A DNA stretch of 35,127 nucleotides from Nitrospirota bacterium (lineage in GTDB: Bacteria > Nitrospirota > Thermodesulfovibrionia > Thermodesulfovibrionales > UBA9159). Where the stretch lies: the NCBI GenBank assembly GCA_021790195.1, contig JAJYIF010000033.1, positions 1-35,127 on the forward strand, read 5' to 3'. The notes beneath the pieces were generated by a model. It searched no databases, was not told the DNA's origin, and was given only the letters and a program-made list of their open reading frames with translations. Positions 23,935 through 29,113 of the stretch are shown piece after piece (position 1 is the stretch's first letter; every line of letters begins with the position of its first letter). Position numbers and translations under genes: made by a program.

Positions 23935-25389
23935 CTAAAATCTCATCCTCACCCTATATGTCAGCTTCGTCTCTTTGTCCTTAGGCACCGGGATATTGAA
24001 TTCAGCGGTGAACGCCTCCGTCTTCTTATAGGCGTGGGATGAGCTGAGCATCTTCCAGTCGCCGGGTATCGGCTCGATCACTCTTACAACAACATCTTCC
24101 TTCTTGTGGTTTCTGAGAGAGATTTCGAAGGCCGCTTCGTAAGTGTCGTAGGCGATCTTCTTCCAGTCTGTCTGCTTCCTGCTGCCCACCACATCAAAAG
24201 CGTCGCCAAGTTTCACCCTGACCTTTTCATCCTTCGGAGTATGGTCTATGGAATCCTCTCCCACGAACTGAAGGCTGCCCTCGCTGTCGTTCTTATAGAC
24301 CCGCACAGTGCCTTTCGGCAGAGGTATACCGAGATTGTGGTCCTTCTTGTTTTCGATCTCAAGGAATACGCCGACCTTCTGGTTCGAGATCGTCTCGCCG
24401 TACGTACTGTAATAGTAATACGCAGCACCGCGGTACAACAGCTCTTTCTTGACCGGTATGTCATCGGCATTTACGAGACTGATCTGCTTTGTCTGGTTGT
24501 CTTTGACAGTCGAAGGCCTCTGAAGAGTATAGATATGGTATTCAAAGAATTCCTCCTCTTTAAACTGAGGAGCGGGTCTTGTCGCTGCCTCGGCAAACTG
24601 CATCATGCCCTTCTTATATGCGATCTCGTCCTTCACTCTGTTTACGTCTCCTGCTACCAGCTTGATCTTCGCGTCTTTGTAGGTCGTGCCGCTCTTATTG
24701 TCTATGGTCACCCAGCCCGAGAGGTCTGCCCTATCGTCTTTATCGTTCAATGTAACGACATAGTCGGCCCGCCAGTTGATACCGTTTGTGAGATACGATG
24801 CCTCAATCTTCTGGAGTGACTGAAGACTATTTTCGAGAAGCCAGACAAGGGTCGGCTTTGAGATGAGGTTCTCAGGAACCCCCGGGAAGATGACCCTTCC
24901 TGGATAGCCGATGGTTATCTCGTCTCCGATCTTGTATATCGGACCGCCGTTGTTTGAAAGAAGAGTTGCGGTCACAACCTCTTCCCGCTCTGTGTAGGGA
25001 TTCTTCTGATAGAGCTTAACTTCCTTGCCTACGTATTTGTCCATGAGCTTCTGGGGATTCAGAAGATCGTATTCGTAATTCTGCTCAAGAATCTGAAGAC
25101 TGTCAGAATTAACGAGAGATTTAATGTGGACACTCGTCGGGATTATCTGTGAGGCAACGTCCATGAATTTGAGCTCTCCCGTCCCTTTCGGAATCCGAAG
25201 CTCCCTTTGGTCCTTCACCAAACCAAGGTTGACGTTATAGATTGTAAGCGCTATCCCTGTCTGATCTTCAAGGCCGGTCGAAAGACTTTCGGCCTTCTTG
25301 CCACCCTCCTTTGCCGATGCGCCGATATTGAAAACAATGACCACAGAAAAGACTAAGACCAATACACCTATCATCCCTCTTGTTCTCAT
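23935..25389 (-). CDS. Exported DUF4139 domain protein
   Basis: The 484-residue protein has an N-terminal signal peptide (MIGVLVLVFSVVIVFNIGA). It has the DUF4139 pattern: LTIYNVNLGLVKDQRELRIP at the start, LVWLLENS, SYLTNGINWRADYVVTLN, LVAGDVNRV, and a beta-rich C-terminus with LEIENKKDHNLGIPLPKGTV and FNIPVPKDKETKLTYRVRMR. Related proteins are found in many Gram-negative envelopes, and their function is unknown. ATG 25387-25389 follows AGGAGGTTGGAG. Earlier in-frame starts are inside the ribosome site. An ECF-type promoter lies 40-68 bases upstream, matching one in front of the ECF sigma gene at 28469. This suggests envelope-stress control. Confidence 0.85.
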   Translation of the reverse strand: MRTRGMIGVLVLVFSVVIVFNIGASAKEGGKKAESLSTGLEDQTGIALTIYNVNLGLVKDQRELRIPKGTGELKFMDVASQIIPTSVHIKSLVNSDSLQILEQNYEYDLLNPQKLMDKYVGKEVKLYQKNPYTEREEVVTATLLSNNGGPIYKIGDEITIGYPGRVIFPGVPENLISKPTLVWLLENSLQSLQKIEASYLTNGINWRADYVVTLNDKDDRADLSGWVTIDNKSGTTYKDAKIKLVAGDVNRVKDEIAYKKGMMQFAEAATRPAPQFKEEEFFEYHIYTLQRPSTVKDNQTKQISLVNADDIPVKKELLYRGAAYYYYSTYGETISNQKVGVFLEIENKKDHNLGIPLPKGTVRVYKNDSEGSLQFVGEDSIDHTPKDEKVRVKLGDAFDVVGSRKQTDWKKIAYDTYEAAFEISLRNHKKEDVVVRVIEPIPGDWKMLSSSHAYKKTEAFTAEFNIPVPKDKETKLTYRVRMRF

Positions 25390-25428: not shown

Positions 25429-25457
25429 TTAGACAAGAGAGAGGCTGAAAAAGTTCC
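25429..25457 (-). promoter_or_regulatory. ECF/SigmaE-type promoter of the DUF4139 gene
   Basis: On the minus strand GGAACTT (25451-25457) and GTCTAA (25429-25434) are separated by 16 bases, matching the classic E. coli SigmaE pattern. The GAAC to GTCT spacing (18 bases) is identical to the site in front of the ECF sigma gene. The leader would be about 32 bases and includes AGGAGG. Confidence 0.65.
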
Positions 25458-25485
25458 GGAGGGTCAAAGGGTTGGGAATTCTGCG

Positions 25486-25500
25486 AGTCGGTTACCGACT
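25486..25500. promoter_or_regulatory. 15-base palindrome upstream of the ECF-type promoter
   Basis: AGTCGGTTACCGACT is a perfect palindrome with one central base. It lies about 29 bases upstream of the -35 element of the DUF4139 gene. It could be a regulator site or a weak hairpin, and the role is unknown. Confidence 0.4.
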
Positions 25501-25567
25501 GATATTGAGTTTCAGGAAGCCGAAATTGATGCGGATTTCCGAAAGAAACAGGATACGGATCAGCCTC

Positions 25568-26103
25568 TTACTTCTTCAGTTTTCCCTGAAGAATCTCCGT
25601 AAGAAATTGAGACTCCTGTTCAACTTTGGTCGTCAATTTCTGCAAATAAACTTTGTTCGTTTTCCAGATCGTGTACCCTGTTACAGGACTTGTTAAAAAG
25701 CCGATTAGAACAGCTATTTTCGTAGACACGTTAAATGATGCCAGCAGAACTGGTATCCCTATCAAATGAAATAGCATGCCCATTGCGGCAGTCAATTTCT
25801 TTCCGGCCCAACCTTCCGGCTCTCTAGCCGGCCTTGTATCATCGCTTATCTCAATAGAAACTGTCGCACCATTTGCTTTGTCCTGTACTATGCCCTTTAG
25901 TCTCAGGTACCCCTTCTTGGTTATGAGAAAGGTATTGTCTCTAATCTTCCCTTCGTAAAGTTTATCGTTTCCCCAAAAAGGCGATTTAAACTTATACCAT
26001 TTGGGTAGGATTGCGACATATTCTGAAAGCTTCGCGATTGCTTTTTCGGCAGTCAGTGGTGTTTGATAGTTACCTTTATTCTCTTATCTTGGAAGAATTC
26101 CAT
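25568..26103 (-). pseudogene. Probable frameshifted gene for a small membrane protein
   Basis: The frame ending at 25568 is open back to 26083, with no ATG, GTG or TTG before 25795. Yet the upstream part reads like protein: PLTAEKAIAKLSEYVAILPK, SPFWGNDKLYEGKIRDNTFL, and GATVSIEISDDTRPAREPEG. It is followed by two helices (LFHLIGIPVLLASF, IAVLIGFLTSPVTGYTIW) and a charged tail. An ATG at 26101-26103 in a neighbouring frame reads MEFFQDKRIKVTIKH and stops at about 26056. A one-base shift near there would join it smoothly to PLTAEKAIAK. So either the gene is broken or the sequence has an error. No ribosome site precedes that ATG. The family is not recognised. Confidence 0.5.
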
Positions 26104-26223
26104 GTGCAATCACAGAAATCTTGTCATCGAGCTATCCCTAAGGGTTTCAGAGAGACTCTTCCCATATTCTCTCACTATCCTTTGAATGGTCTCAATGCCG
26201 AATGCCTGGAGATCAGGTCGAAA

Positions 26224-27393
26224 TCAGCCATACTTGCCGCCCCAGAGTCTGTCGAGGAATTCCCGATAAGGTAGCACCTCTATCCCTTGCACCTTTCTCG
26301 GACGCGCTTCGAGGCTCACGCAAAGATAGTGTTTATGCTTCTTTTCCTCCGCCAAGGCACGGAGAGACCTTAGATCCTGAATCGATACGTTCTCTTTGGC
26401 CTTGACTTCCACGGCCGTATGATCCCCTATAATGAAATCGACCTCGAAGCCGGAAGTCGACCGCCAGTAGCTCACGGCTTCACCAGACACATAATCGCTG
26501 TAGCTTATGAGTTCATGCATGATATAAGTCTCAAACGCCTGTCCGGACTCCGGCGTACCGATGCGAAATCTCCTCCCTTGAAGCGCGGATACAACGCCGA
26601 CATCGAAGAAATAATACTTTGACGAGGCGAGAGGCTTCCTTTTCTCGGTCTTTTTCCACGGTGGGAGTTCATGGAGCACAAGAGTATCCTTCAATATCTC
26701 GAAATATTCATATACGGTCGTCCTCGGGACCTGAGCATCGTTCGCAACGTTGGTGAAGTTGACAACGGTGCCATTGCAAAGCGCTGCAACCTTCAGGAAA
26801 CGACTAAAGGCCGGTGCATTGCGCGTAGCCCCTTCCGCGACAATCTCCTGCTGAAGATAAACGCCCGCATATGCCTTCAGGTCCTCCTGTGGTTCATCCG
26901 AGAAATAAATGGACGGCAGTAACCCGCGCTCCATAGTGACGCCCATATCGAACCGGTCCCCCAGTTCCCTGTATGTGAGCGGATGGAGATATTTGGTGCG
27001 GGCGCGTCCACCGAGAAGGTTGACCCCTCCGCGACGGAGTTTCCTGGCGCTCGACCCTGTAAGAAGAAAACGCACGCCTCTGGTTTCGATAAGCCGGTGG
27101 ACCTCATTCAGGAGCTCCGGAAGCCGTTGAATTTCGTCGATGACTATCATGCGTTCCTTCTGGTTGAGTTCCTGTGCAATGCGACCGGGGTTCTGATTGA
27201 GCGCCAGATACACTGAAGTGTCGAGAAGGTCGTACGTACGAATGTCTTTCAATAGATGGCGGATAAGCGATGTCTTGCCGGTCTGCCGGGGTCCCAGCAG
27301 AAAATAAGACCTCTTTGCAAGGAGACCGGGCAGGTCAAGTATGCGCGAAACCCATTCCGGATGAGAACTATTAGCTGTCGCCATTGTCGTCAT
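26224..27393 (-). CDS. AAA-type ATP-binding protein with C-terminal DUF4143
   Basis: The 389-residue protein has Walker A GPRQTGKTS at about 34-42, Walker B MIVIDEIQRLPELL near 83-96 and sensor LLTGSSARKLRRGGVNLLGG at about 111-130. A winged-helix segment follows (VPRTTVYEYFEILKDTLVL). The nuclease-like DUF4143 end has SGFEVDFIIGDHTAVEVKA. This family is common and patchily spread in bacteria and archaea, with no settled function. The end, with a D...E.K core, resembles a PD-(D/E)XK fold. The probable start is ATG 27391-27393. It has no ribosome site, and a palindrome lies across it. A second ATG follows three codons later. Confidence 0.88.
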   Translation of the reverse strand: MTTMATANSSHPEWVSRILDLPGLLAKRSYFLLGPRQTGKTSLIRHLLKDIRTYDLLDTSVYLALNQNPGRIAQELNQKERMIVIDEIQRLPELLNEVHRLIETRGVRFLLTGSSARKLRRGGVNLLGGRARTKYLHPLTYRELGDRFDMGVTMERGLLPSIYFSDEPQEDLKAYAGVYLQQEIVAEGATRNAPAFSRFLKVAALCNGTVVNFTNVANDAQVPRTTVYEYFEILKDTLVLHELPPWKKTEKRKPLASSKYYFFDVGVVSALQGRRFRIGTPESGQAFETYIMHELISYSDYVSGEAVSYWRSTSGFEVDFIIGDHTAVEVKAKENVSIQDLRSLRALAEEKKHKHYLCVSLEARPRKVQGIEVLPYREFLDRLWGGKYG

Positions 27394-27403
27394 ATATTAT
27401 GAC
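27389..27403. promoter_or_regulatory. Palindrome across the start of the AAA/DUF4143 gene
   Basis: GTCATA, three bases, then TATGAC form perfect six-base arms that include the start codon. A wider partial copy (CGTCAT ... ATGACG) extends to about 27411. It could be an autoregulatory site or could hide the start in a hairpin. Confidence 0.4.
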
Positions 27404-27481
27404 AAATGACGATAGACATGTCAAGCTTTATCATCCGGAGCCTTGATGAATTCTTCGAGTGCCGGCCTGACAATTACGTCA

Positions 27482-28468
27482 TTAACGATTCTCGATAAGT
27501 TCGACGTTAACTTTCAGCATTCCCTCCCCTTCCTTAATCTTCCCAATCTCTTTAACTTCCCCGATAGATTTCAGTTTCTCACGAAGATCGTTAAGCCTGG
27601 CCGAATTCAACTCTGCTACAAAGATCTTCCTGCCTTCAAGGGACTGCCTCTCAATAATCTCACCGCCGAGAGCTGCAACGGTCTTCTCTATCTCTTTAGC
27701 GGCGCCTTCGAGATCTCTGACTTTGACAGTTAAGCCCATACTCTCCGTCTTCCCTTCAACGGCAGCTTTCATTCCTGGGACGGCTTGCGCAACTTCCCGC
27801 TTCGTTTCTTGTCTCATGGCGCCTGCCGCAGACTTTGCTGCTTCAGTTGCCGAGGCAGGAGCTGCCTTTTGCTCTTTATACGCAAACTCGAATTTCTTTT
27901 GCGGCTCAGGTGCTTTAGGAGCAGCCGCCTCAATCTTGTCTTTAGCCTCGGACTTGCCTTGCGTAGTCTCTCTTGCGGGTTTCTCCGGCGCAATCGCGAC
28001 TTCCTGAGAGATGTTCTTTTCTTCGCTTTTCTTGATCGGCCCTATCCTATCTTCCCTGATTATTTCTTTTTGAAGAATTTCTGGAGAGGCCTCTTCGGTC
28101 GGCGCCTTTGCCAATTTCACTTCAGGATTGATATCGCGGTAGATGTAAAGGGCGAGACCGACGATGAGGAGAGTTGCAACAGCTTCGAGCGGTACTTTGA
28201 TCCGAAGAGGATAGAATAACCTTTGAAGGATCCCTTTCTTCCTCTGGCTCTCTTCATGCACCTTCGCCATGATCTTTTGGGTCATCCATGCCGGAGGCTC
28301 AATTTCTTCGAGCCCTTTGATATGTTCGATAGTTCTTCTCAAATCAGCAAGCTGGGCGCTGCATCCGGCGCACGATTTCAGGTGGTCCTCGATCTTGGAC
28401 CGTTCTTCCGGAGAAAGCGCGCCATCAAGATAAGACGAGAGTTTTTCTCTGATATCGCTGCATTCCAT
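27482..28468 (-). CDS. Membrane anti-sigma factor, zf-HC2 with DUF2275-like domain
   Basis: The 328-residue protein begins MECSDIREKLSSYLDGAL and has the zinc-binding HxxxCxxC of anti-sigma factors in HLKSCAGC at about 29-36. A membrane helix is at about 91-110 (LEAVATLLIVGLALYIYRDI). A long Ala/Lys/Glu/Pro-rich linker follows, and then a compact C-terminal domain (VKVRDLEGAAKEIEKTVAAL, GGEIIERQ, FVAELNSARLNDLREKLK), which would lie outside the membrane. The layout is that of DUF2275 proteins. It directly follows the ECF sigma gene with no space between them, so it should hold that sigma factor inactive until an envelope signal arrives. Confidence 0.87.
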   Translation of the reverse strand: MECSDIREKLSSYLDGALSPEERSKIEDHLKSCAGCSAQLADLRRTIEHIKGLEEIEPPAWMTQKIMAKVHEESQRKKGILQRLFYPLRIKVPLEAVATLLIVGLALYIYRDINPEVKLAKAPTEEASPEILQKEIIREDRIGPIKKSEEKNISQEVAIAPEKPARETTQGKSEAKDKIEAAAPKAPEPQKKFEFAYKEQKAAPASATEAAKSAAGAMRQETKREVAQAVPGMKAAVEGKTESMGLTVKVRDLEGAAKEIEKTVAALGGEIIERQSLEGRKIFVAELNSARLNDLREKLKSIGEVKEIGKIKEGEGMLKVNVELIENR

Positions 28469-29080
28469 CTATAGCTCCTCTGCCATAACTTTCTTCAGAC
28501 AGCCCTTTATCGCGTCCCGCGCCCTGAAGAGCCTTGACTTCACCGTCCCCTCCGCGATCTTGAGCATTCCGGCAATTTCGCCATATGAGAACCCCTGCAT
28601 GTCCTTCAGGACAATGACTTCCCGGGATTCATGCTCCAGTCTCTTAATGCAGTCCTGCACTTTCCTCTTTAGTTCATCTTTCTCCAGCGTATCAACCACA
28701 GAAGGCCCATTGTGAGCTACCTCCCTCCTGATCAGCCCATCTTCAGTCTCCACGGGGTCATCGAGCGAGTATTGTTCATGCCGGCTTTCCGTCTTCATTT
28801 TCAGGATTCTGTTCTTCGAAAGGTTTATGATAATGGAGCAAAGCCAGGTCGAAAACTTTGATGTCCCCCTGAAGCTGTCGAGGTTGCGGTATCCCGATAG
28901 GAATGCGTCCTGGACTACTTCGCATGCGTCTTCAAAACTGCCTATCATCCGGTATGCGACATTCAGCATCTTCTTCTGATATTTAACTACAAGCTTTTCG
29001 TATTCGTCGATATTGCCCTTCCTCACTGAAAGGACGATATCCATATCCTCATCGGGCCCGCTTTGTTCTCTTCCTCTCAT
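28469..29080 (-). CDS. ECF-family RNA polymerase sigma factor (RpoE-like)
   Basis: The product is 203 residues from ATG 29078-29080. Region 2 includes AYRMIGSFEDACEVVQDAFL and SFRGTSKFSTWLCSIIINLS. Region 4 is SREVIVLKDMQGFSYGEIAG followed by MLKIAEGTVKSRLFRARDAI. Region 3 is absent, as is normal for ECF factors. It should direct RNA polymerase to GAAC/GTCT-type promoters, one of which (29085-29113) lies in front of it. That site would start transcription close to this ATG. The start may therefore be the next in-frame ATG at 29044, although its ribosome site is poor, or a TTG at 29092. The anti-sigma gene follows immediately. Confidence 0.9.
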   Translation of the reverse strand: MRGREQSGPDEDMDIVLSVRKGNIDEYEKLVVKYQKKMLNVAYRMIGSFEDACEVVQDAFLSGYRNLDSFRGTSKFSTWLCSIIINLSKNRILKMKTESRHEQYSLDDPVETEDGLIRREVAHNGPSVVDTLEKDELKRKVQDCIKRLEHESREVIVLKDMQGFSYGEIAGMLKIAEGTVKSRLFRARDAIKGCLKKVMAEEL

Positions 29081-29084
29081 GTTA

Positions 29085-29113
29085 TAAGACAAGTCAAGAA
29101 AGGATTTTGTTCA
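29085..29113 (-). promoter_or_regulatory. ECF-type promoter in front of the sigma factor gene
   Basis: On the minus strand TGAAC (29109-29113) and GTCTTA (29085-29090) have the same 18-base spacing as GAAC/GTCTAA at the DUF4139 gene. This is the pattern expected for autoregulation. The -35 lacks the final CTT of the stronger site. Confidence 0.5.

Follow-up and report, generated by a model that had tools for sequence, protein, structure and literature searches.

A conserved predicted autoregulatory ECF promoter with a leaderless-type sigma gene start, shared with genes for secreted DUF4139 proteins in Nitrospirota and other bacteria

Introduction

Among described ECF circuits, those closest to the one reported here are E. 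coli RpoE (sigma-E) with RseA and P. aeruginosa AlgU with MucA. The -35 box recognised by E. coli sigma-E is GGAACTT. The present system shares with both pairs a two-domain ECF factor, a similar promoter-reading segment, promoter boxes of the GGAAC and GTC types, a membrane anti-sigma factor and, by prediction, autoregulation. Unlike either pair, it has a zinc-finger anti-sigma factor, a sigma message predicted to be leaderless, and DUF4139, P266 and VIT-VWA proteins as its known targets, and its sigma protein scores far below the cut-off of the RpoE equivalog model TIGR02939 (127 versus 236 bits). B. subtilis SigW gives the best NCBIfam match and is also a relative of known structure, yet the sigma protein also falls below the SigW equivalog cut-off (NF007223, 130 versus 209 bits).

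Autoregulation is common among ECF factors, at about 55% by prediction (PMC8103513). Leaderless sigma messages are known from M. tuberculosis sigEp1 (PMC4921905) and S. coelicolor sigJ (PMC3160421), and leaderless messages in general are enriched among transcription genes (PMC3160421, PMC7563307). What the two known cases have in common with ours is a sigma mRNA that begins at the start codon, a property that is predicted here. In M. tuberculosis, however, the leaderless sigE message comes from a WhiB7-linked promoter and not from the one with SigE/SigH features, whereas in the system described here it would arise from the autoregulatory promoter, which is kept in many genera. DUF2275 is mentioned in the literature in connection with, among others, ECF36 fusion sigma factors. 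The regulon is not named in the open-access literature that was searched, and we take it as new, built on a circuit of a known type.

Results and Discussion

The locus and its proteins

The window, by which we mean the whole 35,127-nucleotide stretch that was analysed (contig JAJYIF010000033.1 of Nitrospirota assembly GCA_021790195.1), contains the following features.

29085..29112, minus strand: sigma gene promoter of ECF type, predicted to be autoregulatory; -35 GAAC at 29109-29112 and -10 GTCTTA at 29085-29090, with N18 between
28469..29080, minus strand: ECF sigma factor gene; predicted ATG at 29080, 4 nt past the -10 hexamer, without an SD
27482..28468, minus strand: anti-sigma factor gene; zf-HC2 with HX3CX2C (HLKSCAGC), one transmembrane segment near residue 90, DUF2275
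25429..25457, minus strand: putative ECF promoter for the DUF4139 gene; -35 GGAACTT, -10 GTCTAA
25390..25424, minus strand: 5' leader predicted for the DUF4139 mRNA, the 5' end being likewise a prediction; SD AAAAGGAGG
23935..25389, minus strand: gene for a secreted DUF4139 protein of 484 aa; N-terminal hydrophobic helix, the rest almost all beta in the predicted model

The pattern GAACN18GTCTWA has exactly two matches in the window, at 25429-25456 and 29085-29112 of the minus strand, as against a mean of 0.09 in 100 shuffles, none of which reached two. They sit immediately upstream of the DUF4139 gene and the ECF sigma gene, which confirms the claim of an earlier note on this DNA that the motif precedes both genes with identical N18 spacing. 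Its description of the DUF4139 copy as GGAACTT-N16-GTCTAA was likewise correct. The sigma-gene copy, TGAACAAAA...TTGTCTTA, reads TGAAC... and GTCTTA; the first G is missing and the fifth -10 base is T, and the sigma promoter of the source genome is a weaker match than most.

The mechanical sigma ORF begins at TTG 29092, within the -10 box; the ATG at 29080 is better supported as the start, by comparison with orthologues. The resulting 203-aa protein is a two-domain ECF factor, with Sigma70_r2 and Sigma70_r4_2 both above cut-off and a TIGR02937 score of 95.4 (cut-off 42.9). It possesses regions 2 and 4 only, joined by a short linker, as ECF (group IV) factors do. Its closest relatives of known structure are AlgU, sigma-E and SigW, and in the comparison with them its recognition segment is GTVKSRLFRARDAI versus GTVRSRIFRAREAI. 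The protein is like sigma-E and AlgU, the region 4 recognition segment included.

The ATG of the anti-sigma gene abuts the sigma stop codon. The zf-HC2 domain of its product (50.8 versus 22.2) and the HX3CX2C motif point to a zinc-finger anti-sigma factor. That motif is found in 45 of 46 ORFs downstream of sigma genes, and a transmembrane segment in 44; the recurrence of HX3CX2C suggests that an adjacent cognate anti-sigma gene is the rule at these loci.

Conservation of the sigma promoter

In a set consisting of the source genome and 60 relatives, the sigma factor was detected in 11 at the threshold used and a DUF4139 homologue in 22, and comparison of gene order places the two genes side by side in several. 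A class-level set of 230 genomes has the sigma factor in 39 genomes from 29 genera. Named relatives include Nitrospirae, Deltaproteobacteria and Holophagaceae MAGs and a Geobacteraceae MAG. GAAC-N18-GTC-type boxes with the same spacing lie upstream of the sigma gene in 42 of 47 distinct loci (those with at least 43% identity), a figure that, like the other locus and genome counts given here, does not represent independent cases because the genomes are related. Outside these 42, three loci (L094, L181 and L210) have near-matches on reading.

Aligned across the 42 loci, the boxes are 90%–100% identical, apart from the fifth -10 base (74%), whereas identity in the spacer from its third base on is mostly 30%–50%, as expected under selection on the boxes. 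By this promoter footprint alone, the sigma factor would be classed with the positively autoregulated ECF factors.

A leaderless-type start

Comparison of start spacing separates the sigma genes from their putative targets. The sigma start codon lies 3–4 nt past the -10 hexamer, without an SD, in 33 of the 42 loci. Of the 42 sigma genes, 34 have a start no more than 5 nt from the -10 box; among 62 target genes only 1 does, and its start is a TTG, with an ATG behind an SD at +38. The first start with an SD ahead of it lies 26–98 nt past the -10 box in target genes, mostly 30–41. The leaderless-type arrangement, on which the earlier note is silent, recurs in Nitrospirota, Deltaproteobacteria and Holophagaceae. 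Transcription usually begins about 5–8 nt after the -10 element, so with the sigma ATG only 4 nt away the 5' end should coincide with it; the sigma mRNA is predicted to be leaderless, its 5' end falling at or within a base of ATG 29080.

The most serious alternative accepts the promoter and disputes the leaderless message, which would instead be translated from a downstream start codon or would acquire a leader from an upstream promoter. An SD-preceded downstream start is indeed present in 6 of the 42 loci, and additional upstream promoters are possible. Eight of the 42 have no start within 5 nt (L081, L216, L095, L096, L139, L209, L213 and L217), and in two of these an ATG appears only at +14 (L095) or +13 (L096). 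We nevertheless regard this alternative as unlikely: the 3–4 nt position is retained in the large majority of loci just described, several loci, L009 among them, have no other start ahead of the conserved region, and even a longer message would lack an SD ahead of that ATG, the space being occupied by the promoter boxes. In L081 (G166) and L216 (a Smithella MAG), ATA replaces ATG at the +4 start position, which would mean either an uncommon start codon or a start that has moved elsewhere.

TA-type boxes 4–7 nt before an ATG occur at about 1%–3% per position in 332 ORFs of these loci (a rough figure for sigma-70 boxes only), so leaderlessness does not seem to be the rule in these genomes. Tentatively, the leaderless sigma message might be a selected part of the switch, in which a single promoter class serves a leaderless regulator and SD-led effectors through different initiation modes, although we would put this below an even chance. 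If true, a separate initiation mode could, for example, sustain the feedback during a failure of normal initiation, or leaderless initiation could hold sigma output down relative to its anti-sigma factor. With its nearly constant gap of 4 bases between -10 hexamer and ATG, the system offers a predicted leaderless regulator alongside leadered targets under one promoter class, in a form that is simple and testable, and it is relevant to the enrichment of leaderless messages among transcription genes.

One family of relatives (L193 in G120, L194 in G121 and L195 in G049) carries a further ECF sigma gene, which is more distant in sequence (33%–35% identity). It has GGAACTTTC...TGTCTAA at its start, with GTG or ATG directly after the hexamer, and is possibly another autoregulated ECF factor, its start codon uncertain.

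DUF4139 and other target families

For the DUF4139 gene, ATG 25389, which follows the SD, is preferred to ATG 25407 as the start, and comparison shows the promoter-to-start spacing and the SD to be kept in orthologues. Together with ATG 29080 this corrects the likely start codons of both the sigma and the DUF4139 genes. The protein exceeds the gathering score of DUF4139 (PF13598; 34.4 versus 31.8). PDB fold matches to its model (fair, pLDDT 81) had TM values of about 0.15 and were set aside. In the open-access literature that was searched, DUF4139 was found only in Leishmania proteogenomics and Anisakis protein papers, as judged from titles and abstracts. The domain may be linked to the mucoidy inhibitor MuiA, a link of which we make no use.

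Comparison of genomes ties the DUF4139 promoter to the presence of the sigma gene. It is present in 20 and absent from 8 sigma-positive genomes, versus 4 and 28 sigma-negative ones (Fisher p = 4e-6), these being raw counts among the matches listed, before exceptions were read and with nine genomes left out. The exceptions include genes at contig edges in G061, G166 and G167, a GTCCAA in G043, and a truncated sigma gene at a contig in G180. Three genomes (G138, G185 and G002) are only 80%–88% complete, and the absence of a sigma gene from them is thus unproven. Many pattern matches of one family, of the form GGAACNGGNATNGGNCTNTANATGTCTAA and from seven genomes (G112, G118, G040, G121, G123, G049 and G031), were discarded as coding false positives; the one that was translated reads GTGIGLYMS and looks like a histidine-kinase box.

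In relatives, the genes behind other promoter matches encode two secreted groups, the P266 family and VIT-VWA proteins. P266 is a family of ~266 aa with a signal-like N-terminus and a strongly conserved AVDGRNII motif (e.g., at L046, L055, L057 and L169). It has no Pfam match above cut-off (DUF7918 is weak, at 22.4 versus 27), and its weak structural model (pLDDT 60) yielded no fold match with E ≤ 0.001. VIT-VWA proteins have a sub-threshold match to the sortase-target family TIGR03788; no sortase was recognised by eye among the ORFs of five VIT loci, and the sortase link was dropped. Homology searches, used in place of the motif, detected P266 in 6 of 17 genomes and VIT-VWA proteins in 4 of 15; every one of these is sigma-positive and has the promoter. 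The totals of 26 P266 and 10 VIT promoters are biased upward, as the remaining loci were mostly fetched for having the motif. Neither gene is present in the source genome. DUF4139, P266 or VIT-VWA genes often adjoin the sigma gene.

The bases following GGAAC are mostly TTTT(T) before DUF4139 and VIT-VWA genes and mostly AAAT before sigma and P266 genes, a difference among target classes that may tune promoter strength.

These promoters might be read mainly by some other ECF factor of the same specificity, which would make the sigma gene a target and not the regulator. ECF promoters do overlap in specificity, and a loose search flagged eight candidate places in the genome, so other sigma-like genes probably exist there, although only this locus passed 1e-30. 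The distribution of the promoters makes such a reading distinctly improbable: those of DUF4139 occur mostly where this sigma gene is present, P266 and VIT-VWA are confined to sigma-positive genomes among those tested, and members of all three families are frequent neighbours of the sigma gene. Control by the sigma factor encoded at the locus itself remains the better account.

Motif frequency in the source genome

Pattern searches of the 3.3 Mb genome returned six matches to the loose motif, compared to eight for a reversed-pattern control, i.e., no enrichment, and the evidence from a single genome is therefore thin. The stricter pattern GGAAC(W)4-N13-TGTCTMA has one exact match, the DUF4139 promoter, and one more with a single mismatch. 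The genome scan for further envelope targets that the earlier note had suggested gave, at the level of pattern matches, none that was convincing with either pattern. The note's refuting condition, a motif frequent at random, bears on the loose motif, which is at background in this genome; the matter is settled by orthologues, in which the boxes and their spacing are kept. That the window holds merely two unrelated chance matches to GAAC-N18-GTCTWA, as the lack of enrichment might suggest, is refuted by the same boxes, spacing and position in orthologues whose spacers have diverged, and we give it a negligible probability.

A proposed circuit

We consider it very likely that the locus encodes a self-amplifying sigma/anti-sigma switch with a leaderless sigma mRNA, which also drives an SD-led DUF4139 mRNA. 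Autoregulation and control of DUF4139 are well supported by the comparative sequence evidence. An autoregulated sigma factor with a zf-HC2/DUF2275 anti-sigma factor, driving the DUF4139 gene, was the central proposal of the earlier note, and the boxes at 42 of 47 sigma loci and a DUF4139 promoter that tracks the sigma gene speak in its favour.

In the resting state, the membrane zinc-finger anti-sigma factor would hold the sigma factor. A signal from outside the cytoplasm would inactivate the anti-sigma factor, and the freed sigma factor would then direct RNA polymerase to GGAAC-N17-TGTCTAA promoters. From its own promoter would come a leaderless sigma mRNA continuing into the anti-sigma gene, by which the sigma factor would amplify both itself and its partner. 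The second promoter in the source genome would give an ordinary SD-led mRNA for the secreted DUF4139 protein, and in relatives the same promoter would also drive the secreted P266 and VIT-VWA families. A role in envelope stress is plausible, given that the anti-sigma factor is transmembrane and that the targets have signal-like helices at their N-termini, and the products might accordingly serve in envelope protection. The regulon, found in a little-studied bacterial group, would make three poorly characterised secreted families (DUF4139, P266 and VIT-VWA) outputs of one extracytoplasmic signal.

Other features of the window

An AAA_14/DUF4143 ATPase gene (26224-27393) lies between the anti-sigma and DUF4139 genes in the window; in G039, DUF4139 closely follows the anti-sigma gene. 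At 25580-26085 on the minus strand there is an open frame of ~170 codons (TAEKAIAKLSEYVAILPKWYKFKSPFWGN...LTEILQGKLKK), with no obvious ATG near its beginning, which is possibly a decayed gene or a gene with a rare start.
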